NCBI RefSeq assembly: GCF_030532965.1
Contig: NZ_JAUNKC010000008.1
Location: forward strand, 44,158 to 108,157
Direction of reading: 5' to 3'
Length of the DNA: 64,000 bases
Source: Corynebacterium sp.
GTDB taxonomy: Bacteria > Actinomycetota > Actinomycetes > Mycobacteriales > Mycobacteriaceae
The translations under genes and the position numbers were made by a program. Positions 1 to 61,864 of the stretch are shown here, in pieces; the stretch's first letter is position 1, and each line of letters begins with the position of its first letter. Below the pieces are notes generated by a model. The model was not told where the DNA came from and made no database searches. It saw only the letters and a list, made by a program, of their open reading frames with translations.

Positions 1-782
1 GAGACGAAAAAACACCAGGTGAAGTGTGTCAACTACTGGTTGATATGCATCAGGGTGACGCCCAGGTTGAAGTTCTCAGTGATCTAGGTTCAGCGGATGA
101 GGCCCATTCTGTTGGTTGTGCGTTTCATCCGCCGTCTGTCGTCAGCGCGCTGAATGTCATCGCTGTTGTGCCGTCGAAAAGCGGCAACCCCCGAACTCCG
201 GGGCTGCCTGACTCCAAATTCGAAAACGATGGCCAATTGACCAAATCGCATATTCGGGCGTTGACCGTTTCTGCGCTTGCACCTTCCGAGGGCGACGTTC
301 TGTGGGATATCGGCGGCGGAGCAGGTAGCGTCGCCATTGAATGTCTGCGCGCCACCAACACCACTCGTGCGGTGTGTTTCGAGATCGACGAAATTCGCCG
401 GGGTCGGATTTTAAAAAATGCCCGCACCCTAGGCGTAGCGCATAGACTCGCCGTCCAAGGGGAGGCCCCAACTAACTACACATCCGTCCCGGATAATCCC
501 GATGTCGTGTTCATTGGCGGCGGCATCACCACCCCTGGCGTTTTTTCTGGCGCATGGGACCGACTCAAACCAGGTGGCAGGCTTGTTGCGAATGCGGTAA
601 CCATTGAATCCGAACAGATGCTGTGGAAGTTAAAAGGCCGACACGGCGGCACGCTGGCTCGATTTGATATAGCCAAAGAGCACTCCGTCGGTGGTTTCAG
701 CACGTTCAAACCTGCCTTGCCCGTGACGCAGTGGGTCGTAACCAAAACCGACTCTGACTATCTGGAAGAATTTAACGAATGA
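1..782 (+). CDS. cobL: Precorrin-6Y C5,15-methyltransferase, decarboxylating (CobL), 3' part
   Basis: The frame is open to the left window edge (first full codon at position 3), so the gene starts outside and only 259 C-terminal residues are visible. A possible GTG at 24 lies inside the family domain and is not taken as the start. The visible part contains the end of the CbiE-type methylase half and the whole CbiT-type half. The latter has the SAM-binding motif LWDIGGGAGSVAIE, close to the LWDIGAGSGS form usual for CbiT. The enzyme methylates C5 and C15 of the corrin ring and removes the C12 acetate carboxyl in the aerobic B12 pathway. Its stop overlaps the cobM start as ATGA, which indicates translational coupling. 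One copy of the CGTCGAAAAG repeat lies at 172-181. Confidence 0.93.
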   Translation, partial: DEKTPGEVCQLLVDMHQGDAQVEVLSDLGSADEAHSVGCAFHPPSVVSALNVIAVVPSKSGNPRTPGLPDSKFENDGQLTKSHIRALTVSALAPSEGDVLWDIGGGAGSVAIECLRATNTTRAVCFEIDEIRRGRILKNARTLGVAHRLAVQGEAPTNYTSVPDNPDVVFIGGGITTPGVFSGAWDRLKPGGRLVANAVTIESEQMLWKLKGRHGGTLARFDIAKEHSVGGFSTFKPALPVTQWVVTKTDSDYLEEFNE

Positions 783-1552
783 CCGTCTACTTTATCGGCG
801 CTGGCCCTGGCGCCCCGGATCTACTGACGCTGCGCGCCGATCGATTAATCCGTAGCTGTGGAATGTGCTTGTACGCTGGCTCTATAGTCCCGGAGGAAGT
901 TTTAGCCAATGTCCCGCCGGAAGCGGAATTGATAAATACCGCCCGGATGCCGCTGGATGCGATTACTGAAACAATCAGTCGGGCCCACCACGCCGGAATG
1001 GATGTGGCTCGTCTGCATTCAGGCGATCCGGCTATCTATTCGGCTGTCGCTGAACAAGCCCGAAGACTCACCGAATTAGGTATTGATTATGAGATTGTCC
1101 CAGGTGTGGCTTCTTTTTCGGCAGCAGCCGCGGCGCTTGGTCACGAATTGACCGTCCCAACTGTGGGCCAGACTGTTATCCTTACCCGGGTTTCCGGTCG
1201 GGCGTCAGCGATGCCAGCGGGGGAGGATCTTGCGACGCTAGGGGCAAGTAGGGCAACGCTATGCATTCATTTGGCGGCGCACGACATAGTTCGGGTGGTT
1301 TCCGAACTCGTGCCGAATTACGGCGCAGAATCTCCAGTGGCTGTTGTGGCGTTTGCCTCGCGCCCGGAACAAGTCATTGTTCGAGGAACCCTGCGCGATA
1401 TTGCGCAAAAAGTCCAGGATCAGGGCATTACCCGTACCGCTGTCATTATCGTCGGTGATGTTTTGGCAGCGGATGGATTCCCAGATTCGTTCTTGTATTC
1501 AGATGATCGGCCACGAGATGACGAGGGAAGAACCATTCCATGCGCGCATTAA
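779..1552 (+). CDS. cobM: Precorrin-4 C11-methyltransferase (CobM)
   Basis: This is a 257-residue single-domain tetrapyrrole methylase that transfers a methyl group from SAM to C11 of precorrin-4. The N-terminal motif FIGAGPGAPDLLT is the conserved GxGPG(x)PxLLT loop of the CobA/CobM/CobJ superfamily, and LHSGDPAIYSAV is the second conserved block (GDP). Full length is typical for the family. The start overlaps the cobL stop by four bases and the 3' end overlaps cobK by 13 bases, so cobL-cobM-cobK form one transcription unit. No separate promoter is visible. Confidence 0.95.
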   Translation: MTVYFIGAGPGAPDLLTLRADRLIRSCGMCLYAGSIVPEEVLANVPPEAELINTARMPLDAITETISRAHHAGMDVARLHSGDPAIYSAVAEQARRLTELGIDYEIVPGVASFSAAAAALGHELTVPTVGQTVILTRVSGRASAMPAGEDLATLGASRATLCIHLAAHDIVRVVSELVPNYGAESPVAVVAFASRPEQVIVRGTLRDIAQKVQDQGITRTAVIIVGDVLAADGFPDSFLYSDDRPRDDEGRTIPCAH

Positions 1553-2268
1553 TTCTGGGCGGTACCGCCGAGGGCAGGGAAGTAGCTAAACAATTGGTTA
1601 TGCGCGGCTGGCATGTCACCAGCTCGTTGGCAGGGCGAGTCGACAACCCACGATTACCGGTAGGTGAGGTTCGAATCGGTGGCTTTGGTGGTCCCGCGGG
1701 ACTTACAACCTGGTTAATCGACAACGGGATTGAGGTCGTCATTGATGCGACCCATCCGTTCGCTGAGCGCATCTCACTATCGGCTGCAGAGGCGGCGCGC
1801 GCTACCGGAATCCCGTTATTGGCGTTGCACCGCCCGGAATGGAAGCCACAGGCACGGGATAAGTGGATTCCAGTTGCCTCAATGGCGGAGGCAGCAAAAG
1901 TTGCAGCCCGGGACTTTCACCACATTTTCTTAACCATCGGCCGGCAACAGCTCGCACCGTTTGCTGAAGACCCGCATAATTTGTACGTCATTCGTACTGT
2001 TGAACCACCTCACGTTCCGTTGCCGCCTCGCCATCGGTTGATCCAGTCGCGGGGCCCATTTACTGTTGCCGATGAGAAAAAATTGATGCGAGGAAACCAA
2101 ATCGATTGTGTGGTAACCAAAAATTCTGGCGGCTCCATGACCGAAGCTAAGCTGATCGCGGCCCGGGAGTTGGGCATTCCGGTGATTATGGTGCAGCGAC
2201 CCGCGCTGCCCACTGTCGCCACTATCGTTTATAGCCCGGAAGAAGTAATCTCTGCATTGCACCAATGA
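1540..2268 (+). CDS. cobK: Precorrin-6A reductase (CobK)
   Basis: This 242-residue protein reduces precorrin-6A to dihydroprecorrin-6A with NADPH. The N-terminal LILGGTAEGREVAKQL is the family's nucleotide-binding start. DATHPFAERIS, TIGRQQLAPF and VTKNSGGSMTEAKL are further CobK/CbiJ blocks. The ATG at 1540 lies within cobM and gives the standard length with the GGTAEG motif right at the N-terminus. It is the last gene of the cobLMK unit and is followed by a hairpin shared with the convergent secreted-protein gene. Confidence 0.95.
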   Translation: MRALILGGTAEGREVAKQLVMRGWHVTSSLAGRVDNPRLPVGEVRIGGFGGPAGLTTWLIDNGIEVVIDATHPFAERISLSAAEAARATGIPLLALHRPEWKPQARDKWIPVASMAEAAKVAARDFHHIFLTIGRQQLAPFAEDPHNLYVIRTVEPPHVPLPPRHRLIQSRGPFTVADEKKLMRGNQIDCVVTKNSGGSMTEAKLIAARELGIPVIMVQRPALPTVATIVYSPEEVISALHQ

Positions 2269-2307
2269 TGCAATCATATTCGGCTTTGAAGCCGTCCTAC
2301 GAAAAAC

Positions 2308-2365
2308 AACACCCAATCGAAAGCTACCGCCGTAAGTATCGGCAATGATCGCTCGATTGGGTGTT
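2308..2365. terminator. Bidirectional hairpin between cobK and the secreted-protein gene
   Basis: A perfect 13-bp inverted repeat (2308-2320 with 2353-2365) flanks a 32-base loop that could fold further. It lies between two convergent genes and is the expected site for termination from both sides. There is no long T run, so the mechanism is inferred. Confidence 0.6.
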
Positions 2366-2862: not shown

Positions 2863-4404
2863 TTAGTCATATCGGCGGGAGGTAAAAACTCGTTTCTCCC
2901 CCCGAGTGGTTTCATACACCTTGGTGGTTGAAGCCCCGATGATCACCATCGTGCGCATGTCGACGACCGTTGGATCGAAGTCTGCGATGGTTGTGATCGT
3001 GACTTCTTGTTGCTCACTTCCCACCGCACGTGCCACGATAACCGGCGTAGTAGGGGATTGATACTCGGCCACAATATCCCGCATTCGGGATACTTGCCAT
3101 CTGCGTTCTTGAGAGGCTGGGTTATAAACAGCAAAAGCCATGTCAGCGCCAGCAAGAGCACGGATTCGCTTTTCGACGACATCAAACGGTTTTAGCCGAT
3201 CTGATAGCGAAATCATGCCAAAATCGTGACCCAACGGTGCACCGACGCAGGAAGCAACAGCTTGCGCGGCAGTCATTCCTGGGATCACCCGGATAGGAAT
3301 ATCGCGCCATAGATCATCATCTGCGGTCTCTAATACCGCCGCAGCCATTGCGAAAACGCCGGGGTCACCGGAGGAAACAACGGCGACCCGTCGTCCAGCT
3401 TTCGCCATGTCTAGGGCCATCGCGGCGCGTTCTGCTTCCACCTTGTTATCGGAGAGGTGACGGCGCTGCCCGGCGCGTTCCGGTACCCGATTAATGTATG
3501 TCGAGTAGCCGACAATGTCTGTTGCTTTTTTGAGCTCTGCCTGTACTTCTGGGGTGGTCCATCGTGGTGCACCGGGCCCCAGTCCGACTACGACGACTTC
3601 TCCGATGGCTGCCGGATCTTCGGTGCGCGTTGATTCAGGTGATTGCTTATTTGACGGTACGACTGCGACAGCGAAATACGGGATTTCGGCTGGGTCGGCC
3701 TCTAGAAGCGGAGTATGGTTTTGGCCTTCCATACCGACTCGGGTGACAACGAATGCTCGATCGGCGACGCCTGCGGTTGTCATTGCCTGTTTTACTTTGG
3801 AAAACGTCCGTCCGAGTTTCATCACTACTGCGCAGTCTGTGTCACGTAGCTTTTCGGTTAGCGTTGCTTCGTCTAGGGTGCCGGGCAGGACAGTCAGTAT
3901 TTCTTCGTCTTCGCATAAGGGTATGCCTAATACATCAGCGGCTGCGGTAATAGAGGGTATGCCGGGAATTATTTCAGCGGGGAAGTCTTCGGCCAACATG
4001 CGATGCAAGTGCTGGTAGGAGCTGTAGAGCATCGGGTCACCTAGGGCTAGTACCGCAACGGTTTTTCCAGCCTTAAGGTGTACGCTTAGGCGGTTTGCAG
4101 CGGTGGCATAAAACTCGGCCATGGCGCCGACATAGCCGCCTGGATGGTCGGTAATTCCGGTGGTTACGGGGTATTCCAGTAATTCGATGAGATGATCAGC
4201 CCGGATGTGCGTTTGCGCGATTTTTCGAGCCGTCGAATCGCCGCCTTTGCGTGCATGGAACGCTATGACATCGGCTTGGTCGATGGCGGCGACGGCTTTG
4301 AGCGTGAGTAATTCGGGGTCACCGGGCCCCACGCCAACGCCTATGAGTTTTCCAGTTGGTTTGGTTACGGTTTGCGACTGGGGGAGAGATTCAGGTGTAT
4401 GCAT
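2863..4404 (-). CDS. cobIJ: Bifunctional precorrin-2 C20- / precorrin-3B C17-methyltransferase (CobIJ)
   Basis: This 513-residue protein is a fusion of two tetrapyrrole methylases. Residues 15-250 are CobI-like (LIGVGVGPGDPELLTLKAV, then LALGDPMLYSSY) and methylate precorrin-2 at C20. Residues 268-505 are CobJ-like (VVVVGLGPGAPRWTTPEV, VVSSGDPGVFAMAAAV) and make precorrin-4 by C17 methylation and ring contraction. CobI-CobJ fusions are common in Actinobacteria. Both halves keep the GxGPG and GDP loops, so both should be active. It lies downstream of cobH (39-base gap) in a cobG-cobH-cobIJ unit. A CGTCGAAAAG repeat copy sits at 3169-3178 (minus). Confidence 0.95.
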   Translation of the reverse strand: MHTPESLPQSQTVTKPTGKLIGVGVGPGDPELLTLKAVAAIDQADVIAFHARKGGDSTARKIAQTHIRADHLIELLEYPVTTGITDHPGGYVGAMAEFYATAANRLSVHLKAGKTVAVLALGDPMLYSSYQHLHRMLAEDFPAEIIPGIPSITAAADVLGIPLCEDEEILTVLPGTLDEATLTEKLRDTDCAVVMKLGRTFSKVKQAMTTAGVADRAFVVTRVGMEGQNHTPLLEADPAEIPYFAVAVVPSNKQSPESTRTEDPAAIGEVVVVGLGPGAPRWTTPEVQAELKKATDIVGYSTYINRVPERAGQRRHLSDNKVEAERAAMALDMAKAGRRVAVVSSGDPGVFAMAAAVLETADDDLWRDIPIRVIPGMTAAQAVASCVGAPLGHDFGMISLSDRLKPFDVVEKRIRALAGADMAFAVYNPASQERRWQVSRMRDIVAEYQSPTTPVIVARAVGSEQQEVTITTIADFDPTVVDMRTMVIIGASTTKVYETTRGEKRVFTSRRYD

Positions 4405-5121: not shown

Positions 5122-6302
5122 CGTGATGTAACCTCGTATTCGCCGTCACCAGTGGCGAGGTATTCAGTGTGTGATGATAGCGGGTGTCCGCAGCGTCGTT
5201 CGCAGCCGGAAAAGTGGATAAGGCCTGCCGGAATCGTGTCTGATTGCGCCAGGTTAGCTGCATCTTGTTGAGTATGTGACAGCGACTTATTGCAGCCGGG
5301 AAGCCCGGTGCAGGCTGTTATTCGCAACCAGGGTGAACGTTCGTCGAATATCAGGCCCATTGGGGCTAGTACGCGAAGCACTGCGTCGGCGTCGTGTTCA
5401 GGTATGTCGTGAATAACTAGAGATGCCCACGGGGTGATGGTGGTGGTGGCACCGATGGCCGCTAGAATCTGGGCGACTTTTGCCGACAAAAACCCGAACC
5501 TCAGACCAGCTCCCAACGATACGGTGTGTGAGTTTGGGGCTTCGTTTTCGAGCCACCCGATGGGACGAAAATTAAAAGCTTGTGTAGGTCGGGAATCCAC
5601 AGCGTCGTGCTTTTCGACGACCGGCGAGTCTGCTAAAACTGCAAGGATCGATGCGATTGCGGTTGGGTTCTCACGCAACCGCCAATGTTCCCCTCTAGTG
5701 TTTTGCCACGCTTCTGCAGCCGCCGTGAGCAAAGGTGCGACCTGCTCTTCTGCCGTGATGACATAGGGCTGCAGCTGGCCGGCAAGTATTAATTGAAATC
5801 CACGGTCACAGCGACGAACACCAAAATCCGGACGCCTACTCAGCACGTCGCCGGAACCACCATCAATACCAAATAGTGTGCGCCCAGATAATCCGGTGAC
5901 GGTGCCATTTGATAGGAGTGCGGTATCGAGCGCTTCAACCAGCGGCCATAGGTCTTTGTCCAGCGGGGAGGCTAGGATGTTTCGGATTTTGTCATGGGGG
6001 CGGGAGGGGAGAAACCCAGCGTCCTCAACCGCAGCCAAAAATTCTGCATCATTGCTAACACCCCGGAACTGAAGATTGCCGCGGGTGGTGATGTGGATTG
6101 TTCCATCGCCGATATCGGTTGAAATTCGGGCAATGTCTTGCCATTGTTCCGCGAGAATTTTCCCACCGGGAAACCGAACACGACCGATCGCACCATCTTG
6201 TGCGTTATGGAGTTTGATCGCACCTGGACACATGTCGCTTCGGGAACGATCTGGCGAAGTAATCAAAACACTGACATCAGCGTTTTCATTAAGGATGGTC
6301 AT
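5118..6302 (-). CDS. cobG: Precorrin-3B synthase (CobG)
   Basis: This 394-residue enzyme of the nitrite/sulfite reductase fold makes precorrin-3B with O2, which marks this as the aerobic B12 pathway. Two ferredoxin-like half repeats and the Fe-S/siroheme cysteine sets are visible near the C-terminus: CTGLPGCNKS and GCERRCGHP, giving the four Cys expected for a 4Fe-4S cluster. The ATG at 6302 is preceded by AGGATGAG. It heads the minus-strand cob unit, and its promoter must lie in 6303-6500, back to back with cobN. I see no riboswitch on this side. A CGTCGAAAAG copy lies at 5610-5619 (minus). Confidence 0.92.
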   Translation of the reverse strand: MTILNENADVSVLITSPDRSRSDMCPGAIKLHNAQDGAIGRVRFPGGKILAEQWQDIARISTDIGDGTIHITTRGNLQFRGVSNDAEFLAAVEDAGFLPSRPHDKIRNILASPLDKDLWPLVEALDTALLSNGTVTGLSGRTLFGIDGGSGDVLSRRPDFGVRRCDRGFQLILAGQLQPYVITAEEQVAPLLTAAAEAWQNTRGEHWRLRENPTAIASILAVLADSPVVEKHDAVDSRPTQAFNFRPIGWLENEAPNSHTVSLGAGLRFGFLSAKVAQILAAIGATTTITPWASLVIHDIPEHDADAVLRVLAPMGLIFDERSPWLRITACTGLPGCNKSLSHTQQDAANLAQSDTIPAGLIHFSGCERRCGHPLSSHTEYLATGDGEYEVTSR

Positions 6303-6375: not shown

Positions 6376-6385
6376 CGTCGAAAAG
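6376..6385 (+). repeat. Intergenic copy of the CGTCGAAAAG repeat
   Basis: This exact 10-mer is followed by C (11-mer CGTCGAAAAGC) and lies between cobG and the cobN riboswitch. It has no inverted partner nearby. It belongs to the 18-copy family described in the findings. Confidence 0.85.
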
Positions 6386-6507
6386 CTACAACCAAGAGCG
6401 GAACGCGTCAACTTTGCCTTTTGCCGTGGGCTCACGTGGCTTTAGCAATCCGCCCCGAGAGATTGGGGTAGGAAACGCTTCACTTCCCATGCCTATGGGC
6501 TAAGGTA

Positions 6508-6705: not shown

Positions 6706-9700
6706 ATGATTACTTTGCTGTCCACCTCAGACACCGATCTGCTTTCGGCCCAAAAAGCAGGGGAATCGGCAGATGTACACTACCAATACGCGAATCCAAA
6801 TTTCCTTAATAACGATTCGCTCAACGAACTTATAGCTACGACAGATATCTTTGTCGTTCGCCTTCTCGGTGGAAAACGCGCATGGGAATGGGGGATAGAG
6901 GCGCTTGTGGCCTCCGGGAAACAGGTCGTCGTGGTATCCGGCGAATTGGCTGTGGACGCAGAATTAACCGAACTGTCTACCCCGCCAGCCGGTGTGGTAA
7001 CCACCGCCCATACCTACCTTGCTGAGGGTGGCAAAGACAATCTTGTTAATCTCCACAACTTCCTGTCCGACACGCTGCTTCTCACCGGACTGGGCTTTAA
7101 TGAACCAGCGCATATGCCCATCTGGGGTCATCTGCACCGTGAGGGCGAGGATCCTTCGTGGCAGGTAGCTCCGGATGCGCCACGCATTGGTATCATTTAC
7201 TACCGCGCGCAGCACTTAGCCGGAAATACCCACTATATCCACGCCCTCGCCGATGCAATCGTAGAACGAGGCGCCACCGCTGTGCCTATTTTCGCAGCGT
7301 CGTTGCGGCAGGCTCCGCCAGAATTGCTGGCCGAAATTGCCACCTGCGACGTATTGATCACAACTGTGTTGGCAGCCGGTGGCTCTAAACCGGCCACCGC
7401 CCAAGCTGGTGGGGATGATGAAGCCTGGGACGTCGCGCAATTGGCGGCGTTGGATATCCCGATCATTCAAGGCTTGGCTCTAACCAATTCTCGGAAGGAA
7501 TGGGAAGAATCAGACGAGGGGCTCAGCCCAATCGATGTCGCTTCCCAAATCGCGGTTCCGGAATTCGATGGTCGGCTTATCACCGTACCGTTTTCGTTTA
7601 AGGAATACGACGCCGACGGCCTCATTTGCTACGTGCCCGACCACGACCGCTGCCAACGCTTAGCGGGAATCGCCTACCGGCACGCTCGGCTGCGGCATAT
7701 TTCGCCAGCCGAGAAAAAGATTGTCCTTATGCTTTCTGCATATCCGACGAAACACGCTCGCATCGGTAACGCGGTTGGTTTGGACACCCCGTTATCGACT
7801 CTGCGGGTTCTGCGCGCTCTGCATAACGCAGGCTACGACCTTGGCGACATTGATCAGATCCCCGGGTTCAGCGTTGAGGGCGAGCTTGATGGCGATGCTC
7901 TCATGCACGCGATCATCGCCGCTGGTGGTCACGACCCTGACTGGCTAACTGAAGAGGTTCTTTCCAACAACCCCCTCAAACTACCAGCTGCAACATATCA
8001 GCGTTTCTTCGAATCATTGCCGGAAGAAATGCAAGCTGAAATGGAAGAACACTGGGGCGGGGCACCAGGGACCCATTACGTGAACCCAGAGACCAACGAG
8101 CTTTATATTGCGGGACTTAGCTTCGGCAATGTTGTGGTCATGGTGCAACCGCCACGTGGTTTCGGTGAAAACCCAGTCGGTATCTATCACGATCCCGATT
8201 TGCCCGCGAACCACCACTACCTGGGCACGTATTTCTGGCTCAGAGAGGTTTTCGGAGCGGACGCGATCGTCCACATGGGCAAACACGGAAATATGGAATG
8301 GCTGCCGGGCAAAAACGCCGGGCTATCCGCCGAGTGTTACCCGGACCAAGCCATCAATGAGTTACCCCTAATCTACCCGTTTCTGGTGAACGACCCAGGT
8401 GAGGGCACTCAGGCGAAGCGACGCGCCCACGCGACACTTATCGACCACATGATTCCCCCAATGGCGCGTGCCGAATCCTATGGAGATATCACGCGTCTGG
8501 AACAACTTCTTGACGAGCACGCCACGATTTCCGCGATGGATCCAGCGAAGCTGCCTGCTATTCGTCAAGAAATTTGGACGCTGCTTCAGGCCGCGAAAAT
8601 GGATCGGGATCTCGGTTGGGCCGAGCGCCCCGATGAAGATGCCTTCGATGACAAAATGATGGAAATCGACGGCTGGCTATGCGAGATCAAAGATGTTGCC
8701 ATCCGAGGCGGCCTCCATATCCTAGGCGAAACCGTCAGTGGTGACGTCCGGGTGGAGCTCGTCTTGGCAATGTTGCGGGCCCGCCAGCTCTGGGGCGGCG
8801 AAACCGCAGTTCCTGGCCTCAGGGAGACCTTAGGGCTTTCGGAATCCGGCGATGAAACTCGCAACCGTGTTGACGAGGTGGAAGGAATCGCCCAACAGCT
8901 GTTAACCAGCCTGGAAAACTGCGACTGGGACGCCGGAACTGTTTCCGAAATTGTCGCGGCAGCCGACTACTTACCGGCGAACACGAATAAAGATGAGCTG
9001 ATCAAGCTTCTTTCATTTGCTTGTGGCGAAATCATTCCGCGGTTGGCGGAAACTTCCCGGGAAATCGACCAAATCCTACGGGCTTTATCGGGCCGTTTCA
9101 TTGAAGCAGGTCCGTCTGGCTCCCCGATGCGCGGACTGGTCAATGTATTACCCACCGGCAGAAATTTCTACTCAGTCGACCCAAAGTCCCTGCCATCGCG
9201 TCTTGCGTGGGAAACGGGTCAGCTGCTCGCCGAATCTCTCATCACCCGCTACCGTGAGGAGCACGGCGATTATCCGAAGTCCGTGGGTCTTTCCGTGTGG
9301 GGAACCTCCGCCATGCGCACCTCAGGCGATGACATCGCAGAAGTCTTTGCGCTACTCGGTGTGCGGCCGGTGTGGGACGAGGCTTCGCGGCGCGTTATTG
9401 ACCTTGAAGTTATTTCGTTGGAAGAACTTCGGCGACCACGTATTGATACCACTGTCCGAATTTCTGGGTTCTTCCGCGATGCTTTCCCGCACGTTCTCGC
9501 ACTGCTTGACGACGCCGTCCAACTCGTCGCCAGCCTCGATGAGCCGGACGACATGAACTATGTGGCTGCACATGCCCGCGTCGATAAGCAAGAAAACCCC
9601 AAAGCCCACGTGCGCCGAATCTTCGGATCTAAACCAGGTACCTACGGTGCGGGCTTGTTGCAATTGATCGAATCTGGCAACTGGCGCGACGATAAAGACC

Positions 9701-10966: not shown

Positions 10967-12562
10967 ATGTTGAATACTCACACATCCCAAATGTATGCGA
11001 TTCTACGAATATGTCTAGCAGCGTTATCTGGCGTGCTGGTTTATGCTTCCTACCAGCCGCAGGGGATCAGCGTTGCTGGGATCGTAGGAATTGCGCTATT
11101 TTACGCCGCGTTATCGCCATTTCGCGGTAACCATATATCAATGCGGTTAGGTGCAGGGGTAGCATTTACCCATTGCGTTGTGCTGTATCTGTTGTTATTG
11201 CCGTGGATCGGGGAATTCGTCGGTAATTTTCCATACATTTCGCTCGCCGTTTTCCTTTCCCTTTATGGGATCATCCTCGGAATAGGAGCCGCAGCCATAC
11301 AACGACTACCACATTCGTGGTTATGGTTTGCGTTCTTATATCTGGCAGTCGAATGGCTGCGTTCGCACTATCCGTTTGGCGGATTTGCATGGGTGCGCTT
11401 AGCGTGGGGGCAGGTTGGTAGCCCATTAGCTAATTTGGCAAGTATTGGCGGACCGGCGTTGGTCACTTTCGTAACGGTGGCACTTGCCACCGGGTTGTAT
11501 ACGATTGCTTTTCGACGCCATGTGGTGCCAATCGTTGTGTCTTTTATGGTGATTGCGGTCGGTACAACCTGGGCAACCGCCACGTTGGGATCGTCGCAAA
11601 GCGTTGGAAACGTCACCGTTGCAGCGATCCAAGGCAATGTGCCCCGGCTCGGTCTGGAATTTAATGCCCAGCGGCGCGCTGTTTTAGCGAATCACGTTAC
11701 AGAAACCACCAAACTCAAAGACCGTGATCCTGTCGACTTGGTTATTTGGCCGGAAAACTCCTCTGACGTGAATCCGTTTGCCGATATGGCGGCGAGAAAC
11801 CTCATAAATCAAGCTGTAGCTGCCGCTCAGGCACCCATTTTGGTAGGAACTATAACTCGTGACGAAGTAGGACCGCGCAATACGATGGTTGTATTCGATC
11901 CAGAATCTGGGCCAGGGGAGTTCCATCACAAAAAATTCCTCCAGCCGTTTGGGGAATACATGCCGATGCGAAAGTTTTTCCGGCTATTTTCCGAAAAAGT
12001 AGATTTAGCAGGCAATTTTCAGCCTGGTAACGGCACCGGGGTCGTGCAGATGCGTGCCGCAACGTCTGGTACGCCAGTTACCGTGGGCATTGCTACTTGC
12101 TACGAGGTTGCCTTTGACGCTGCAGCACGTGATGCGGTTGCAGGCGGTGCGCAGATTCTCACCACGCCTACAAACAATGCAACCTTCAATTTTTCCGACA
12201 TGACGTACCAGCAACTGGCGATGAGTCGCATGCGTGCGATTGAAGTCGATAGGGCAGTGGTGGTTGCGGCAACGTCGGGGGTGTCTGCAATAGTGCAACC
12301 CGATGGAACGGTTACCCAACATTCCGGAATTTTTGAGGCAAAAACCCTTATCGAAACGTTGCCGTTGCGTAACAGTTCGACGTTTGCAGTACGGCACGGT
12401 TCTACAATTGAATACACGTTAGTTATCATTGGGTGGTTGGCAATGATCTTTGCACTGTGGCGTTTTTATAACACATCTGCTGGATCGGCTTCTGCACCGA
12501 AGCCAAACCGGAAATCACCTTCACGATCAAAGTCGGCCGCTGCGAAGAAGAAAAACCGCTAG
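10967..12562 (+). CDS. lnt: Apolipoprotein N-acyltransferase (Lnt)
   Basis: This 531-residue membrane enzyme adds the third acyl chain to diacylglyceryl-cysteine of lipoproteins. The N-terminal half holds six to seven membrane helices. The second half is a nitrilase-fold domain with the Glu-Lys-Cys triad visible in [23 protein letters not shown] and GIATCYEV. A lysine/serine-rich tail follows a last helix near the C-terminus. An in-frame ATG at 10949 also exists; 10967 has GGAAG upstream and is preferred. It lies 14 bases ahead of ppm1. This pairing is known in corynebacteria and mycobacteria (Ppm2/Ppm1), where the two may be fused and interact. A CGTCGAAAAG copy is at 11508-11517 (minus). 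Confidence 0.93.
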
Positions 12563-22225: not shown

Positions 22226-22278
22226 AGCTTTTCGACGCCCCACCGTTGAAACGTGCACCGCGGGGACGTCGAAAAGCT
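22226..22278. terminator. Terminator hairpin built from an inverted pair of the CGTCGAAAAG repeat
   Basis: Two copies of the repeat in opposite orientation (22228-22237 minus, 22267-22276 plus) form a 12-bp perfect stem (22226-22237 with 22267-22278). After a single-base bulge it continues into a 4-bp C/G stem. It lies between convergent corA and the thioesterase gene. Confidence 0.85.
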
Positions 22279-30999: not shown

Positions 31000-31009
31000 C
31001 GTCGAAAAG
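31000..31009 (+). repeat. Copy of the CGTCGAAAAG repeat after the vWA gene
   Basis: An exact 10-mer followed by C, 12 bases after the stop codon. The next bases, AAAAGCGA and TCGCCTTTT, could pair with one bulge to give a small hairpin. Confidence 0.8.
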
Positions 31010-31090
31010 CGATCGCTGTTCGCCTTTTCCTTGGCTGGAGCAACTTGGCGTCACTGGTAAAAGGAACGGAGAAAGGCACTTAATCACAAG

Positions 31091-43092: not shown

Positions 43093-43168
43093 GCTTTTCG
43101 ACGCCCGCAAAAAGCACCGAAGAATACGAACAACGTATTCGTTCAAAGCCGTTGGGGCGTCGAAAAGT
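43093..43168. terminator. Terminator hairpin built from an inverted pair of the CGTCGAAAAG repeat
   Basis: Repeat copies at 43094-43103 (minus) and 43158-43167 (plus) form a perfect 13-bp stem (43094-43106 with 43155-43167), extended by one G-U pair, around a 48-base loop. It separates convergent genes (the DMT transporter and the 59-residue antitoxin-type protein). Confidence 0.8.
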
Positions 43169-46073: not shown

Positions 46074-46804
46074 TTATCTGTTTTCCCTTCCGCCGATTGT
46101 TCTACTAACTCGATAAGTACGTCCAATACCTCTTCAAGACTTAAATCCGATGTATCGATTACAACGGCGTCTTCCGCGGGCCGTAGCGGGTTCAATGGCC
46201 GGGAGGAATCCAAGGCGTCGCGCCGAACCACATCAGCAAGGACAGATTCATAGATTACATCGCGGCCAGCCGCACGATCCTGTTCGAACCGGCGCCGTGC
46301 TCGAACTTCTGCGGATGCGGTGAGGTAGATCTTCAGGGGCGCGTCGACAAGCACGTTCGTTCCGATATCCCGCCCGTCGACGATGCACCGACCAGCATCG
46401 GCAACAAGTGAACGCTGTAATGCTACGAGGTTTTCCCGAACCTCAGGCACAGCTGACACGGCGGAAACGAAGCGAGTCACGTCTTCATCTCGTATCTCCA
46501 CCGACACATCCGCCCCACCTAGCAACACCGCCTTGGAATCAGGATCATCCGCTACAGAAACCGGAAGGTTTTTCGTTGCTTCAGCGACCGCCGCTGCGTC
46601 ATGCGGATTGATGTCGGAATCCAGTACATGGAGAGTGGCAACTCGATACATCGCTCCCGTGTCGAGGTACTTAGCGCCGAAGTGCTTGGCAACGGCACGG
46701 CAAACAGTCGATTTTCCAGCACCGGATGGGCCGTCTACAGCAACGATGAGGCCACCATCGGTGTTTTCCAAGGCCCTTGCAGAAGAGTTTGTGATTGTTG
46801 TCAT
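46070..46804 (-). CDS. cmk: Cytidylate kinase
   Basis: This 244-residue CMP/dCMP kinase has a P-loop ([18 protein letters not shown]) near residue 26, [11 protein letters not shown] for nucleotide binding and [12 protein letters not shown] as the lid-region block. It overlaps der (ATGA) and touches rluB (TAATG), so rluB-cmk-der is one unit, as in M. tuberculosis Rv1711-Rv1713. Confidence 0.96.
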
Positions 46805-52734: not shown

Positions 52735-52782
52735 GACAATCCCTCTTCCTTGACTAAGATCGCTGCTTGTTGGTTATTGTAG

Positions 52783-52792
52783 CTTTTCGACG
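52783..52792 (-). repeat. Intergenic copy of the CGTCGAAAAG repeat upstream of pldP
   Basis: An exact 10-mer with the preferred next base C, on the same strand as pldP and about 50 bases ahead of its ATG. No inverted partner is nearby. Confidence 0.8.
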
Positions 52793-52987: not shown

Positions 52988-53989
52988 TTAGCGACGAATG
53001 AACTTGTTAACAAAGTGAGCGAAACCGCCAATGGTTGCAAGCAATGCGCCAACAACGATCACCGCGATAGCAGCAATACCTGCAATAATGCCAGTGCGTG
53101 CTTGCTTAGGCAGTTTACTGTTGTCGGAGGAAAGCTGCTCTTTGCCAATTCCGGCAAGGGTCGAAGATCCGTTCTTCGCAATGGACGACAGGTTGCCCAG
53201 GCCAACTGCAGTGTGGCCCTTTTCCCGCTCTGGGTCGCGACCTTCCTTGTTCTTGCAGCCAGTGAAGGAATCGGAGTGGGTTACCCGAATGAATACCTTG
53301 ACAACCTTCTTCGCCTTAGCAGCTGCATCCTGCTTACCGGAGTCGGAATCAGTTGCAGGAGCTGCAGCTACATCCGATCCAGCTGCAGCAGGTGCTGCAT
53401 CGGAATGCGTTGCTGCAGATGCTGCGCCATCGGCACCAGCGGCTTCGCCATCCTTCTGGGAACCTTCAGCTTCGCTACCAGCCTTGTCACCAGCCTCTTC
53501 GGCAGGCGCTTTCGGTGCGTCTGGCTGTACTTCCGGCGCATCTTCGGTACCGATGATTTCAATGTAGAACGGGTTGTCTGGCTTAGCTTTGAAATCCACC
53601 GAGATTTTACGCTCGGACTCATTCAGCTTAAATTCCGCGTTTTCAATCAAGTTGCCATCAACGTCAATGACACGGAACTCAAGACCATCGAGAATTCGGG
53701 CGATTCCGTCGACCGACTTCACGCCAAGTCCGGTGACCAAGGAAGCAAGGTCCCGAACACCGAGGTTGATGGTTACACCAGTATCGGTAGCCTGAACCCG
53801 ATCTTTTCCAACAACGAAGAACGTTGCGTTGGTGTTGTCGATTGGCTCGGCAGGCTGGCGATTTGGAAGGCACTGAACCTGAGCACCAGGTGCTACAGCT
53901 TCTTGGGCTTGTACAACTACGACGCTTGACGACGTTGCGACAGCAGCGGAAAGTGCAATAGCCATAAGTTGGCGACGCTTGGTGGACAT
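52988..53989 (-). CDS. Secreted protein with low-complexity linker and C-terminal anchor
   Basis: This 333-residue exported protein of unknown function has a signal peptide (MSTKRRQLMAIALSAAVATS, cleavage probably after VQAQ). An N-terminal beta-rich domain of about 130 residues follows, with the two cysteines C39 and one near residue 245 (FTGCKNKEG). Next come an Ala/Glu/Asp/Gly-rich linker (about 155-225) and a second small domain. A C-terminal helix (GIIAGIAAIAVIVVGALLA) ends in a basic RR tail, like a membrane anchor. It resembles the 2383-2784 product in layout. It sits between xerD and pldP. Confidence 0.82.
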   Translation of the reverse strand: MSTKRRQLMAIALSAAVATSSSVVVVQAQEAVAPGAQVQCLPNRQPAEPIDNTNATFFVVGKDRVQATDTGVTINLGVRDLASLVTGLGVKSVDGIARILDGLEFRVIDVDGNLIENAEFKLNESERKISVDFKAKPDNPFYIEIIGTEDAPEVQPDAPKAPAEEAGDKAGSEAEGSQKDGEAAGADGAASAATHSDAAPAAAGSDVAAAPATDSDSGKQDAAAKAKKVVKVFIRVTHSDSFTGCKNKEGRDPEREKGHTAVGLGNLSSIAKNGSSTLAGIGKEQLSSDNSKLPKQARTGIIAGIAAIAVIVVGALLATIGGFAHFVNKFIRR

Positions 53990-54316: not shown

Positions 54317-55240
54317 TCACGCGCGCGGATGCGCAGTTGCCCACACTGACCGTAAGTTTTCAGCCGTCACATGCGTGTAGATTTGGGTGGTTGTCACCGA
54401 TGAATGCCCCAACAGTTCCTGTACTACACGGACATCTGCACCACCTTCCAACATGTGCGTCGCAAAGCTGTGTCGAAGGGTGTGTGGTGATATGTCCTTC
54501 GTTATTCCTGCACGTTCCGCAGCGGTTTTAATGATTGCCCATGCACTTTGGCGGGACAATGCCCCACCGCGTTTATTGAGGAATAAGCCATGCGACGAGC
54601 CTGTCGCAAGGGCGGGACGACCACGTACTAGATACTGGTCGATTGCGGCACGCGCTAACGAACCAACCGGAACCAACCGTTGTTTATTGCCTTTACCTGT
54701 TATGCGAAGAAACTCTTCGGCAAAATTGAAGTCGTCAACCGAAAGCCCCATCACCTCGCCGATACGGGCCCCGCTTCCATAGAGCAATTCAACCAATGCT
54801 CTGTCACGTAAGTCAGTGGCGCTGGCATGCTCTCCCTGCGGGATAGTCTCAATGAGTTTGGTTACTTCATCAATACTCAGCGTGTCTGGCAAATGACGCC
54901 CAGTACTTGGTGGCGAAACTTCTGAAGCCACATCGATGGATAACTTCCCCTCAGTTAGCCCGAACTTATGCAAACCCCGCACTACTATCAATGCCCGAGC
55001 AACCGAACTTGCTGCCAACGGTTTTCTGCCCTCGGATTCGTCACCTCTGCGAAGATCCGCAACATAGCTTTCGATATGGCTAGAGGTCACAGACTTCAGG
55101 TCATTTATACCAATGGAGTCTAGCCATTTCGTGTATCGATCGAGATCACGTCGATAATTGCTTAAAGTATTTACACTCGCCCCTTTTTCGACGTTTAGGT
55201 GCATGAGCCATTCTGTGGCAAGGTCATTCGGATTAGTCAC
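54317..55240 (-). CDS. xerD: Tyrosine recombinase XerD
   Basis: This 307-residue recombinase resolves chromosome dimers at dif with XerC. It has an N-terminal SAM-like domain ([21 protein letters not shown] is its start region). Catalytic Arg ([12 protein letters not shown]), Lys ([11 protein letters not shown]), [13 protein letters not shown] (LGHSS) and the Tyr nucleophile (TQIYTHV) are all present. It overlaps the Nudix gene by eight bases. The housekeeping context rules against a phage integrase. Confidence 0.95.
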
Positions 55241-55886
55241 GAACGACCTGTTTCATATCGCCTAAAAGTCCTTGTGCTTGTCGACGAGCAGCTAGGGCGG
55301 TTGGCCGCAACACGAAATCAGAGTCATATTCTTGGGGCTTAGCATCGCGGCTGATTACGTTATCTGCACACATTATTCCTGCAACAGCGATAAGGTTATG
55401 AATCTGCCCGCTCATCACCATGTCGACCGCTGTCGCAAGTGGTACCCATTCGTTTTCCATATCCAGCTCTTCGTGCTGGCGGTTCGGCCGCTTAACATCA
55501 AATAGATCCGTCGCTAAATAGATCCGAACCGCTTCATCACAAAAACCAGGGCTTGTTATACCATCAACCAAAACGGCCCAGTTTCGTGCACCAATGCCTG
55601 CCTCTTCTTGTAATTCTCGCTGTGCGCACACCAACGGGTCTTCGTTGGCAATGTCGAGTAGACCTGCTGGCAGTTCCCACAACCGAGCATTGACAGCATG
55701 CCGATACTGCCGTACCATCGCAATCTTTGATCCATCGAAGGCAACGATCGCAACGGCTCCAAAGTGTTCCACTATTTCTCGATGACTCGTTGACCCATCT
55801 GGCATCGTGACCTCATCACTTCGAAGTGCCAGAATTGAATTCTCGGCAATGATCTTTGAATCGATTACCTCATATTCGAATGCCAT
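55233..55886 (-). CDS. Nudix hydrolase, ADP-ribose pyrophosphatase type
   Basis: This 217-residue hydrolase has the Nudix box ([15 protein letters not shown] region with GLLDI upstream) and [16 protein letters not shown], as in NudF-type ADP-ribose pyrophosphatases (Rv1700). The ATG at 55886 is chosen over a TTG at 55898, which abuts the AAGGAAGG site. In M. tuberculosis pyrG lies directly upstream; here it is absent between this gene and steB. Confidence 0.92.
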
Positions 55887-56862: not shown

Positions 56863-58062
56863 CTATTCTGCCTTTCCAGAACTAAAAAGCCCTTGGAACC
56901 AGACTGCGATGTTATTCCACGTATCAACCAAATTCTCGCTAAATGACCCATCACCAGAGCTGCCAGCAATAGCAACAATCGTGGCGACTGCAACCAAAAT
57001 CCCTAACAGCGCCCACAGCCAACCGATGTTTCCAGAGCTACGAATCATATACAGATTGGAAATAGCAGAAGCATCAACAAGACGTGGTCCGAGCTTAGTC
57101 CTAGACAAAAGCGCCGACGGACTTGCGTTTTCTGCCTGCGCGAATAACTGGTCGAGCGTGATCGGAGCACCGATATTCACGACGATCTGTGCCTCGTGAT
57201 AATCCGCAAGCAGTAATGCCAGATCTGTTGAGTTCTCAACAGCAGACGGAAACGTCATTGCACCAATACCTAAGTCTTGAATGCGCTCCAAACCAGGAGC
57301 ATGACCGTCTGGATCTGCGGGTAGGACGACCCTGGCACCACTTCGCAAAGCTTCTGCGCCAATATTCGACGGATCGCCGACAATGAAGTCGGGCTTGTAC
57401 CCCATTTCCACCAACGTGTCGGCCGCGCTATCAACGCCAATGATTGCAGGCTCAAATTCCCGAATAAAATTGCGCAGCTCTTTTAACTGGTTCTGATAAC
57501 CTGCGCCGGGACTAACAACCACCACTTTCCGTTCGCGTAATGCCTCCCCTACTTCCGGCACTCCTAAACCGTCGATAAGCAATGGCGCCTCAGAGTGGAT
57601 GAATTGGATGGTGTTTCCGAAGAAAGCCTCCATGTAGTCGACCAAATGTTGCTGGGCTTCCACAAATGTTGATTCTGCTTCTCCCTGGGAAACTACATGC
57701 CCAGTCGCTATCAGCTTCTCACCGTAAAACAATTGGCCATCGTCAGTCAGCCGGGCTTTTTTACCATCTTTAAGCGGTAGCCAAACTTCAGCACCAACCG
57801 CTTCAACCAACGTAATTCCTGCTTCTAGCAGCATCTGTGGACCAAAATTAGGCAAGGAACCGGTGCTAAACTTCGCGGCGTTAATCACCGCGGCAGGACG
57901 AGCATCGATTAGGCGTTGCGCCATTGCTCGGGAAATATCTGGTGCGTCAATAATGGCAAAATCACCTGGAGCTAAACGTTTAAACCCTTTTCCATTCGCG
58001 GAAAGATCACGAGTCGCGCCTTGTACGCCAGGTAGATCAGAAGAACGGGAGAACAGACTCAT
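56863..58062 (-). CDS. steA: SteA, putative division/cytokinetic protein
   Basis: This 399-residue protein (Rv1697 type) contains a thiamine pyrophosphokinase-like domain (GAGYQNQLKELRNFIREFEP and DFIVGDPSN) and a C-terminal membrane helix (IGWLWALLGILVAVATIVAIAG). In C. glutamicum SteA with SteB regulates septal cell-wall hydrolysis. A GTG at 58068 is an alternative start. Next to recN across a 62-base gap. Confidence 0.9.
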   Translation of the reverse strand: MSLFSRSSDLPGVQGATRDLSANGKGFKRLAPGDFAIIDAPDISRAMAQRLIDARPAAVINAAKFSTGSLPNFGPQMLLEAGITLVEAVGAEVWLPLKDGKKARLTDDGQLFYGEKLIATGHVVSQGEAESTFVEAQQHLVDYMEAFFGNTIQFIHSEAPLLIDGLGVPEVGEALRERKVVVVSPGAGYQNQLKELRNFIREFEPAIIGVDSAADTLVEMGYKPDFIVGDPSNIGAEALRSGARVVLPADPDGHAPGLERIQDLGIGAMTFPSAVENSTDLALLLADYHEAQIVVNIGAPITLDQLFAQAENASPSALLSRTKLGPRLVDASAISNLYMIRSSGNIGWLWALLGILVAVATIVAIAGSSGDGSFSENLVDTWNNIAVWFQGLFSSGKAE

Positions 58063-59921: not shown

Positions 59922-60860
59922 TTAGCGCGTGTTTCGCTTCTTCGCAGGACCACGCCAACCATCAACTGGTAACCGAAGTTTGGAAACCAAGCGATCTGTA
60001 AACGGCCGATCGTCTAATCTGACCCATTTGATACTCCGCTTACCGCGTACAACTTCCACCCGAGAACCAGCGGGCATATCAATTCTGCGGAACCCATCCA
60101 TGACCACGACCGCGGGGAAAGACTCAGACCGTGATTCGATGGCGACAACCGATTGTGGACTAACCACGAGCGGCTTAGTAAATAGCGCATGCGCGTTATT
60201 TGGCACTACTAAAATCGCATCTAATTCCGGCCACAAGACGGGGCCACCAGCTGAAAACGCATAGGCTGTTGAACCGGTTGGCGTCGAAACCAGAATTCCA
60301 TCACAGCCGAATGCATTGACTGGGCGGCCATCGATTTCCAGAATGGCGTCCAAAACGCCACTACGATTTTGGTTTTCTACGCTTATTTCATTAAGTGCCC
60401 AGCCAGTGCCGATTAATTCACCTTCCGCATTGTGAACCTCAACATCGATCGTCATTCGTTCTTCTATGCGAAATTCGCCACTAATGACCCGCTTGACGGC
60501 TTCGTCTAGGGAGTCCCGCTCCCACTCAGCCAGAAAACCAATATGCCCCAAATTTATACCCAAAACTGGAAGATCGGCATGATGCGCTAAATCGGCGGCA
60601 CGTAAGAAGGTGCCGTCACCCCCCATGACCAAAACAAAGTCGACCCCATCAACGGCTTCAGGGCAGTGTGTGGTTTTCTCGAAAAGGCTCAGAATCGGAT
60701 GGGTTGGAATGATTTCGTCTTTTTCATGGACCAAAATGCGAACCGCAATGTTGGCGTCGTAAAGCAATTCTGCCGCAAGCGCCGCAGTAGCCACGTTAGA
60801 GCGGCGACCTGAGTGCGGAACCAGCAAAACTTTACGAGGAGTGCTCGAATCTTCGACCAT
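59922..60860 (-). CDS. nadK: NAD kinase
   Basis: This 312-residue kinase makes NADP+ from NAD+ and ATP. VLVMGGDGTFLRAADLAHH holds the GGDG motif and DGILVSTPTGSTAYAFSAGGPVLWPEL the NAD-binding block. The upstream frame to 60950 overlaps tlyA. The ATG at 60860 overlaps the tlyA stop by one base (TAATG) and has GGAAGG ahead. Part of the tlyA-nadK-recN operon. Confidence 0.96.
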   Translation of the reverse strand: MVEDSSTPRKVLLVPHSGRRSNVATAALAAELLYDANIAVRILVHEKDEIIPTHPILSLFEKTTHCPEAVDGVDFVLVMGGDGTFLRAADLAHHADLPVLGINLGHIGFLAEWERDSLDEAVKRVISGEFRIEERMTIDVEVHNAEGELIGTGWALNEISVENQNRSGVLDAILEIDGRPVNAFGCDGILVSTPTGSTAYAFSAGGPVLWPELDAILVVPNNAHALFTKPLVVSPQSVVAIESRSESFPAVVVMDGFRRIDMPAGSRVEVVRGKRSIKWVRLDDRPFTDRLVSKLRLPVDGWRGPAKKRNTR

Positions 60861-61681
60861 TATTGGGGTCCTTCCGCCACAGCCGCCGCAACCATTTCTT
60901 GAACTTGCCCGGGATCTAAAGTGGTAGCGCCGCCGTCCTTGACCAGCCACAGAAAGTACTCCACATTACCGCTAGGTCCAGGTAGCGGCGAAGCAACTAC
61001 GCCTTTTAAGGATAGCCCGAGATCTTGTGCGAATGCAGCGACTTCGGCGGTTACTTCTGCGCGTAAGGCAGGGCTACGAACCACGCCACCGGTTCCCAGC
61101 CGTTCTTTACCTACCTCAAATTGTGGTTTAACCATTGGTAGTAGATCGGCACCGTCTTTTAAGCAATTTGCGATTGCTGGTAGCACTAGCTTCAAAGAAA
61201 TAAAAGACAAGTCACCAACCATCATGTCACAAAGCCCGCCGCATGTTTCCTCGGTCAGATTCCGGATATTTGTACGATCGACTACGGTCACCTTCGGATC
61301 GTTAGCGAGCCGCCAAATTAACTGACCATATCCCACGTCAACTGCCACGACTTCCTGTGCTCCGCGCCGTAGCAAAACGTCAGTGAAACCACCCGTAGAA
61401 GCACCAGCGTCAATGACCTTTTTGCCTTCGATGGAAAGCCCCAAAGGCTCAAAATCACTGAGTGCGCCCAATAACTTATGTGCACCCCGTGAAGCCCAGT
61501 CTTCACTAACTTCCCCCTCGACCCGAATTGATGCTTCCATCGAAACTTGGGTTGCGGGTTTGGTCGCCAATATTCCCTGAACAAAAACACGATTCTCTTT
61601 AATGAGATTCTGCGCGTGCTCTCTCGACCGTACGATTTTACGACGCACCAATTCAGCATCTAAGCGTTTAAGTGTGGCCAT
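60860..61681 (-). CDS. tlyA: rRNA 2'-O-methyltransferase TlyA
   Basis: This 273-residue TlyA-family enzyme methylates 16S and 23S rRNA. An S4 RNA-binding domain (RLDAELVRRKIVRSREHAQNLI) opens it, followed by a FtsJ-like methyltransferase domain with VIDAGASTGGFTDVLLRRG and the VKPQFEVGKERLG block. Activity makes ribosomes sensitive to capreomycin in M. tuberculosis. It lies between the small protein at 61697-61864 and nadK. Confidence 0.95.
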   Translation of the reverse strand: MATLKRLDAELVRRKIVRSREHAQNLIKENRVFVQGILATKPATQVSMEASIRVEGEVSEDWASRGAHKLLGALSDFEPLGLSIEGKKVIDAGASTGGFTDVLLRRGAQEVVAVDVGYGQLIWRLANDPKVTVVDRTNIRNLTEETCGGLCDMMVGDLSFISLKLVLPAIANCLKDGADLLPMVKPQFEVGKERLGTGGVVRSPALRAEVTAEVAAFAQDLGLSLKGVVASPLPGPSGNVEYFLWLVKDGGATTLDPGQVQEMVAAAVAEGPQ

Positions 61682-61696
61682 TAATCGAATTCCTTC

Positions 61697-61864
61697 TTAT
61701 TGCAATGCTTGCTGGAGCACGTCATGGGCTGTCGATAATTGCTGTACTTCTTCCGACAACGAATCGACTGGTTGCTCAAGGATCGCGTGTAGCTTTTCGA
61801 CGATCTCCGTCGGCGACGGGGACCCCTGGGCCATCGTTAACGGCGTAGGCTTTGAATCAGACAT
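61697..61864 (-). CDS. Small conserved protein, Rv1693-type
   Basis: This 55-residue gene was recovered by hand. It starts MSDSKPTPLTMAQGSPSPTE, then continues as an acidic helix with VEKLHAILEQPVDSLS and ends EEVQQLSTAHDVLQQALQ at TAA 61697. It directly follows the HAD phosphatase gene (no gap) and precedes tlyA by 15 bases, exactly where M. tuberculosis has the small Rv1693. Role unknown; the helix could form a coiled coil. A repeat copy (61793-61802, minus) encodes VEK here. Confidence 0.82.
   Translation of the reverse strand: MSDSKPTPLTMAQGSPSPTEIVEKLHAILEQPVDSLSEEVQQLSTAHDVLQQALQ

Follow-up and report, generated by a model that had tools for sequence, protein, structure and literature searches.

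A dense gapped DNA word with dialects across Corynebacterium resembles an uptake signal sequence

Why does one short word recur so often, and on both strands, in a 64-kb stretch of Corynebacterium DNA (the window, here the whole 64,000 nucleotides analysed)? To our knowledge, uptake sequences are known only from Neisseriaceae and Pasteurellaceae. A sequence-only reading of the window had proposed a DUS/USS-type uptake signal, a site for a chromosome-organising protein or a restriction-linked motif.

A strict, gapped word in the window

The 10-mer CGTCGAAAAG occurs 18 times in the window, at the very coordinates and strands first reported, against a mean of 0.22 and a maximum of 2 in 100 dinucleotide-preserving shuffles; the random expectation originally given was about 0.1. 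As had been noted, C follows 16 of the 18 copies, making CGTCGAAAAGC, and T follows the other two (16473..16482 and 43158..43167, both plus strand). The most over-represented words of the window at k = 7 to 11 are CGTCGAAAAG or parts of it. The 11-mer/10-mer motif is thus confirmed, but it understates the pattern: the real unit is a strict, gapped 9-base word, CGTCGNNAAGC, asymmetric with a two-base gap and present 30 times in the window. In G000, each single substitution outside the two gap positions yields at most 4 copies, compared with 107 intact.

Copies of CGTCGAAAAGC lie both in genes and between them. V-E-K is encoded in the cobI/cobJ fusion (3168..3178, minus strand), in a cobG-like gene (5609..5619, minus; 229.6 bits, slightly below the family cut-off) and at 16816..16826 (minus), P-S-K in gene 24-782, formerly called cobL and here found to have a CbiT domain (172..182, plus), R-R-K in secA2 (35929..35939, minus) and at 28692..28702 (plus), and L-F-D in a Na+/H+ antiporter-like gene (48584..48594, plus). 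By arithmetic on the coordinates, L-F-D also holds at 38049..38059 (minus) in the YchJ-like ORF 37909-38307, which YchJ models match with scores below their cut-offs and which is missing from the script's gene calls, so that the site was labelled intergenic there. Another copy falls in an lnt-like gene (11507..11517, minus). Intergenic copies occur at 6376..6386 (plus), 31000..31010 (plus), 43093..43103 (minus) and 52782..52792 (minus), and as the left and right arms of an inverted pair (22227..22237, minus, and 22267..22277, plus). The frames first assigned in cobIJ, the cobG-like gene, gene 24-782, secA2 and the ychJ-like ORF hold; V-E-K in a gene at 61697 was not reproduced, as the gene calls of this analysis place that copy (61792..61802, minus) between genes.

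Gapped forms complete the set, most often in the L-x-D frame. They are CGTCGTCAAGC at 9504..9514 (minus, L-x-D) and 53924..53934 (minus); CGTCGATAAGC at 9579..9589 (plus, V-x-K), 25274..25284 (minus, L-x-D), 29749..29759 (minus, L-x-D) and 57570..57580 (plus, L-x-D); CGTCGCAAAGC at 11592..11602 (plus, in the lnt-like gene) and 54458..54468 (plus); CGTCGGCAAGC at 23200..23210 (minus, L-x-D); CGTCGTAAAGC at 35591..35601 (plus, in secA2, L-x-D) and 60755..60765 (plus, L-x-D); and CGTCGACAAGC at 41225..41235 (plus, L-x-D), 46342..46352 (plus, L-x-D) and 55276..55286 (minus).

Could the word be a by-product of protein coding or regulation, through codon usage, a terminator or a repeat family? Two frames do dominate in the sample of genome G000, where 120 of 207 genic sites read L-x-D and 36 read V-x-K. 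The sequence-only reading had argued from the different frames that selection acts on the DNA; all six are indeed used, but far from uniformly. Against a by-product, density is higher between genes than within them in three of four species (G000, G060 and G009), although G001, of the CA dialect, has no intergenic excess (0.37 per kb between genes versus 0.45). The flanks of the window copies are dissimilar, unlike those of a repeat family, and there is no excess of inverted pairs: over named loci with at least 4 sites, the pairs closer than 60 bases comprise 9 divergent, 4 convergent and 7 direct ones, versus 27.1 expected in all. Letter-permuted words are also far less conserved at orthologous places: in G118, 17 of 29 aligned sites of the word are intact (59%), versus 30 of 215 permuted-word occurrences (14%). 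We consider a by-product the least probable of the explanations weighed here.

Between genes the word is extended, with G's upstream and a species-specific base downstream. Of three species profiled, G000 and G009 have A's after the downstream extension (+11 to +14 and +12 to +14, respectively), and in the third, G060, an A-rich stretch is not clear.

Distribution and dialects across the genus

The word is neither near background in number nor confined to this region or to a few paralogous genes. Exact 11-mers number 696 in this 3.2 Mb genome (336 + 360, distributed across the contigs listed), or one per 4.6 kb, against 23 for the reversed word, and CGTCGNNAAGC occurs 1,875 times, against 96 for its reversed form. 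The large excess extends to relatives: CGTCGNNAAGC reaches at least five times control in 167 of 242 Corynebacterium genomes (median among those 167, 1,094 copies) and is near control in the sister genera (113 genomes, 30 genera). The 56 named Corynebacterium loci (1.206 Mb) hold 402 copies versus 38 of a control word, and the 24 outgroup loci (515 kb) hold 14 versus 28.

Other dialects occur in 25 genomes: CATCGNNAAGC in 18 (four weak), GGTGGCGTCA in six and CGCGNCGTCA in one. The dialects share a C(G/A)TC(G/A) core, and any of the four is at no less than five times control in 192 of the 242 genomes, in a tally into which the CA, GGTGG and CGCG classes and the counts from the 1,875-versus-96 run were entered manually. 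CATCGNNAAGC has 490-1,337 copies in 14 genomes; the CA class is defined by copy number, counts of its reversed control word tend to be low, and, with 159-223 copies, its four weak members stand little higher than some CG genomes (up to 165). Among the 66 of 242 genomes searched for them, CGCGNCGTCA has 1,144 copies in G012 and GGTGGCGTCA 125-168 in six genomes. The top 11-mer in G001 (CA) is CATCGGCAAGC, and the top word in G009 is CGTCGATAAGC. No dialect was found in 41 of the 242 genomes. Among these, searches of 80-117 kb each gave no convincing word of the kind in G007, G029, G049, G043, G232 and G206, G008, G128, G132 and G207 were sampled at 17 kb only, and the remaining genomes were probed with the searched patterns alone; the CGTCACCAT word of G029 was rejected as a dialect, with 10 of its 13 copies sitting in L070.

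CG and CA species fall in one 100%-supported clade, in an analysis that included two loci without assignment. At eight sites compared in C. tuberculostearicum SK141 (locus L137), the dialect base is all that changes at 8923 and 19127 in each of the three CA species, and at 10936 in two of three. The CG form is retained at 4490 in two of three, a second change is present at 21812 in all three, the sites at 12151 and 14486 are degraded, and 21081 does not align. CA spellings appear at one and two L137 sites in C. yonathiae and C. kefirresidentii, respectively. At L131, just two of eight CA-form sites have a CG counterpart in CG sisters. Dialect switching at orthologous sites is not uniform, and site-by-site support for it is partial.

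Replication strand, prophages and spacing

A Chi-like recombination hotspot or a KOPS-like segregation motif would be read in one orientation. Motifs of both kinds act in a single orientation and are usually strand-biased, and the density of Chi in E. coli is of the same order as that of the exact word here. The exact word, however, divides 51:56 by replication strand (GC skew) in G000, and the replication strands of the complete chromosome G060 carry 55:61, provided the record begins at the origin (24+/35- in first-half stretches, 26+/31- in second-half stretches). Near-equal forward and reverse counts in the 167 genomes say nothing about such a bias, since the contributions of the two replichores offset each other; the direct tests show none in either genome, and a leading-strand function was rejected on these results. 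Chi and KOPS are unlikely, and we give the one-orientation reading hardly any weight.

Prophages are poor in the word. Twelve prophage stretches hold 17 copies, some of them in host flank, versus 98.2 expected from genome lengths that were in part rounded, a six-fold depletion. Portal genes had been found in 14 genomes, of which 12 were used: three fell below the cut-off, and of these G070 and G071 were dropped and G076 was kept; without G076 the count is 15 versus 89.1 expected. These stretches were tested in place of the longest intervals free of the motif in the G000 sample, from which island depletion had been considered, since the eight largest were not recognised as prophage (judged solely from predicted protein starts). 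The largest gaps are as random placement gives. The gap C15:1-5734 is low in GC and accessory-looking.

The same depletion would be compatible with a self mark, that is, with a methylation or restriction-linked word read by an orphan methyltransferase or an R-M system, and the word is gapped and strict as such a site might be. Yet it is asymmetric with a two-base gap, and Type I sites have a longer gap and Type II sites are palindromic. R-M alone would not build a 20-fold excess, and the dialect base is the sole difference at certain orthologous sites. The restriction-linked motif named at the outset fits poorly, and we regard it as improbable.

Density, dialects, the missing strand bias and the scarcity in prophages would be explained about equally well if the copies were sites, spread along the chromosome, for a nucleoid-associated Corynebacterium protein or a chromosome organiser, without polarity and with dialects tracking the evolution of that protein, and cyanobacterial HIP1 is a precedent for dense chromosome words of debated function, according to the accessible text of PMC4390886. 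However, spacing is random-like in the G000 sample (CV 0.88), with no domain structure seen, and the dialect appears to have been replaced at ~1,000 sites between close relatives, a turnover that selection on a housekeeping protein would hardly bring about and that uptake drive would readily produce. A non-polar chromosome-binding protein nevertheless keeps its place among the candidates first named, as a doubtful but serious one.

A candidate self-recognition system

So, is the word an uptake signal? Its density, lack of strand bias in two genomes, genus-wide spread, dialects, conservation and depletion in prophages all fit a DUS/USS-like signal, which survives testing best of the candidates first named; this is supported as a pattern, not as a function. 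A DUS-like self-recognition system in the Gram-positive genus Corynebacterium is our best reading, with a probability of roughly 0.6.

The USS core of Pasteurellaceae has an A/T-rich stretch behind it. The Corynebacterium word is similar in its short strict core, the A-rich stretch behind it (G000 and G009; not clear in G060) and its many copies per genome, but is unrelated in sequence. It also differs from the signals of Neisseria and Haemophilus, where inverted terminator pairs are frequent, in lacking pair enrichment; in H. influenzae, two USS frequently make up a terminator, as the available part of PMC5217627 has it. In Neisseriaceae, DUS dialects track phylogeny and share a short core that does not vary, CTG, and the Corynebacterium word is like DUS, as described in the portion of PMC3630211 consulted, in its ~10-12 bases, its intergenic and permissive genic places and its dialects, which likewise track phylogeny around a short core, C(G/A)TC(G/A). 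Unlike DUS, it belongs to a Gram-positive genus with Tad/Flp genes and has a two-base free gap. Like HIP1 (GCGATCGC) in the accessible part of PMC4390886, it is dense, genome-wide and clade-restricted, whereas HIP1 is there a palindrome tied to orphan methyltransferases and CGTCGNNAAGC is non-palindromic, gapped and has dialects. Corynebacterium genomes have ComEA, ComEC and Tad genes, as in the Tad/Flp-pilus competence of Micrococcus luteus; the accessible text on that species describes no uptake sequence (PMC6370729), whereas Corynebacterium has a candidate word, and its transformation is hypothetical.

Uptake genes offer little discrimination. ComEC is found in 241 of 242 genomes, the Tad ATPase in 79 of the 80 examined and the ComEA repeat in 56 of the 56 examined, so near-universal that their presence is uninformative. 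The co-occurrence check proposed with the sequence-only reading therefore says little: no tested gene correlates with the motif, because competence and Tad genes also occur in genomes without a found dialect. Pilin-like ORFs of the Tad operon, compared by eye at 20 loci (a pattern filter missed some), gave no presence/absence match to dialect. ComP is the sequence-specific receptor in Neisseria, and we know of no ComP-like receptor for Corynebacterium. In the literature searched, which took in few subscription papers, bioRxiv preprints or supplements (e.g. Table S2 of PMC5217627 was outside it), no Corynebacterium was reported to be naturally transformable, nor, among the matches listed, was the word or any uptake sequence described in the genus.

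If the word is a DUS-like tag, DNA would enter cells by a Tad (Flp)-pilus/ComEA/ComEC route such as Micrococcus luteus uses, and a putative envelope receptor would favour DNA bearing the local dialect. Uptake and homologous recombination would then spread and maintain copies by molecular drive, and protein coding would drive them into permissive frames, where NN is the free part of a codon. A shift in receptor preference could bring turnover of the whole set and a new dialect, which would restrict gene exchange to close kin. The fuller proposal is of a Corynebacterium DUS system that would be the first in Gram-positives, has four dialects or more, works through a Tad pilus and isolates species by dialect switches, among them the relatives of C. 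tuberculostearicum with CG and CA dialects; we consider it somewhat better than an even bet.

Should this be so, self-specific DNA uptake arose independently in Actinobacteria with a different pilus, and natural transformation would be predicted in a genus used in industry. Dialect switches would then isolate species genetically within a single genus, and the 192 dialect-bearing genomes among the 242 form a large natural series in which a receptor may be found by co-variation.

Spelling, placement and conservation of the word

All 18 copies of CGTCGAAAAG that the sequence-only reading had located in the window lie where it put them (mean of 0.22 in 100 shuffles). SecA2 places the source in Corynebacterium, with 61-79% identity to its relatives in named loci of that genus. 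In the whole source genome (G000; 3.21 Mb in 59 contigs), the exact word CGTCGAAAAGC occurs in 336 + 360 copies, compared with 10 + 13 for the backwards word. A substitution scan of 463 kb of this genome (the window and 20 further stretches) found A at position 2 of the A-run in 107 copies, C in 55, T in 25 and G in 7. Position 1 of the run is slightly relaxed (another base in 16 copies), and single substitutions at each remaining position are found in ≤ 4 copies, the largest being T at the last base (4 versus 0.5 expected). The gapped form with two free bases, CGTCGNNAAGC, is the top word of the 5-gap2-4 type both in G000 (257 versus 8.9 expected) and in G060, a complete chromosome (116 versus 4.3 expected). 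It totals 971 + 904 copies in the whole of G000 (96 for the control, the same word reversed).

In intergenic copies G’s stand upstream of the word and the gap hardly varies, being A followed by A or C in G000, AA in G060 and chiefly AT in G009. The next base is species-specific: it is A or G in G000, T in G060 and G in G009. A’s come further downstream in G000 and G009, not clearly in G060. In genic copies the gap is relaxed. Of the 207 genic sites in G000, 120 read CTT-NNC-GAC (Leu-x-Asp), the main frame, and 36 read GTC-GNN-AAG (Val-x-Lys), the second; the two-base gap sits where the protein requires freedom. Intergenic versus genic densities per kb are 0.94 versus 0.50 in G000, 0.73 versus 0.54 in G060 and 0.91 versus 0.61 in G009; no intergenic excess was found in G001 (0.37 versus 0.45). 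The copies in G000 are spaced as if at random, with a CV of 0.88 and a longest gap of 9,651 (9,715 expected).

Strand counts rule against a polar motif. The exact word in G000 divides 51:56 between the G-rich strand and the other. Stretches of G060 hold 24 plus and 35 minus copies in the first half and 26 plus and 31 minus in the second, or 55 leading versus 61 lagging provided that the record begins at the origin, as skew signs mostly suggest.

In an alignment of the window to the relative G118 (79.8% identity across 61.8 kb), 17 of 29 aligned sites are intact (30 sites, one unaligned), compared with 30 of 215 occurrences of 400 permuted-letter control words. Prophage stretches are depleted: the 201.8 kb that surround phage portal genes in CG-dialect genomes, 12 stretches in all, contain 17 copies, some of which sit in host flank, versus 98.2 predicted from host densities (Poisson P = 5e-24). 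Separately, positions 1-5734 of stretch L019 (contig C15 of G000) are motif-free and low in GC (0.479), with an ATPase-like gene in the middle, and are possibly an accessory island.

Distribution and dialects

Across 242 Corynebacterium genomes, CGTCGNNAAGC reaches at least 5 times the control in 167 (median 1,094 copies, range 195-1,964) and 2-5 times in 9; 25 were assigned another dialect, and none of the searched dialect patterns was found in 41. Outside the genus, 113 genomes from 30 genera of the family have counts close to or under the control; the excess is greatest at 373 versus 143. Likewise, 56 named Corynebacterium loci (1.206 Mb) hold 402 copies (control word, 38), and 24 outgroup loci (515 kb; Mycobacterium, Rhodococcus and kin) hold 14 (control word, 28).

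Other dialects were sought by sampling genomes with few AA-form copies. In sampled stretches, the top word of G009 is CGTCGATAAGC and the top 11-mer of G001 is CATCGGCAAGC. The CA spelling, CATCGNNAAGC, has 490-1,337 copies in 14 genomes, 159-223 in 4 others and a few dozen in most CG genomes. CGCGNCGTCA has 1,144 copies in G012 (control 50), the runner-up among 66 genomes tested being G021 (143, control 30), and GGTGGCGTCA has 125-168 copies in G045, G081, G082, G101, G175 and G177 (control 14-25). All four dialects have C(G/A)TC(G/A) in common. Four CG genomes (G035, G181, G182, G238) carry 144-165 CA copies each (control 11-17), and G024 is mixed, with 1,337 CA and 352 CG copies (CG control 74); this looks like either what dialect switches left behind or acceptance of both spellings.

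In a SecA2 tree made by a quick method, with some long branches, the CA species KPL1814, MSK130 and ACRPS adjoin the CG species C. tuberculostearicum, C. yonathiae and C. curieae. The clade that unites the two sets and the CA trio within it both have an SH-aLRT of 100, and the CA dialect requires at least two changes. The first branches in the genus are two motif-free species, for which the program flagged possible long-branch attraction. Eight sites of L137, a locus of C. tuberculostearicum SK141, were compared with three CA species. The dialect base is the sole difference at 8923 and 19127 in all three and at 10936 in two; two of the three retain the CG spelling at 4490, an additional change is present at 21812, degradation is seen at 12151 and 14486, and 21081 is unaligned. 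At some places, then, the switch can be followed at single sites, and at others there is turnover. CA spellings at these sites are few in C. yonathiae and C. kefirresidentii, on the CG side. Of the window sites, 12 are not intact in G118, and five of these read CATCG for CGTCG, the CA dialect base; a CpG-type change of this sort may be a source of new dialects.

Two further words were noticed. In 80 kb of G232 (L113-L116), 13 copies of gapped GGCACNNCTTAG and 12 of gapped TGCACNNTTGGG were counted versus 0.1 expected; they are either a dispersed repeat with no relation to the word or a different signal. Samples of G049 (L071-L075) have an excess of DnaA-box-like TTATCCACA and parS-like TTTCACGTGAAA words, presumably from a near-origin stretch.

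Uptake machinery and a probable DUS-like role

Of the 242 genomes, 241 gave a ComEC match. The ComEA helix-hairpin-helix was matched in all 56 genomes examined for it (53 above cut-off), and the Tad ATPase in 79 out of 80. The sole genome without a ComEC match, G186, is 90% complete, and its CA dialect is weak (211 copies). In G000 the Tad locus (L081) has a helicase and the Tad ATPase, and by resemblance its neighbours are probably TadB, TadC, CpaE-like, Flp and TadF-like; a TadE-like ORF (5002-5307) is 89% identical to its G118 counterpart.

Tad-locus genes are also present in those motif-free genomes that were inspected. The Tad ATPase scores at least 428 bits in every motif-bearing genome tested; among the 41 motif-free genomes, 30 score ≤ 416 and 9 score ≥ 436, G203 lacks a match and G114 lay outside the sample. 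Because of this split, most motif-free genomes seem to belong together as a divergent and perhaps basal group; in the remaining nine the word may have been lost or may be spelled in a dialect outside those found. Comparison by eye of Tad-locus pilin-like ORFs in 20 loci yielded no receptor candidate. The TadE-like pilin ORFs of L099 (G081) and L100 (G007) are very unlike those of most motif-bearing species, and are a lead for the receptor search rather than a result.

So, is the word a DNA uptake sequence? According to one study, the DUS of Neisseriaceae occur as eight dialects that share a three-base core and are barriers to interspecies transformation (PMC3630211). Taken together, the features of the Corynebacterium word form the pattern of these dialects. 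The match is incomplete in two respects: inverted word pairs are not enriched, and none of the genes tested (ComEC, ComEA, Tad) correlates with the word. We therefore say that the word works like a DUS, a reading to which we give a probability of roughly 0.6, and do not claim membership as proven. Micrococcus luteus, according to a second study, cannot be transformed without Flp pili and carries comEA and comEC (PMC6370729). With the route modelled on that species, we infer the uptake step, the receptor and the drive in Corynebacterium: DNA would enter by a Tad pilus, ComEA and ComEC route, a putative receptor would read the dialect of the incoming DNA, and recombination would follow uptake.
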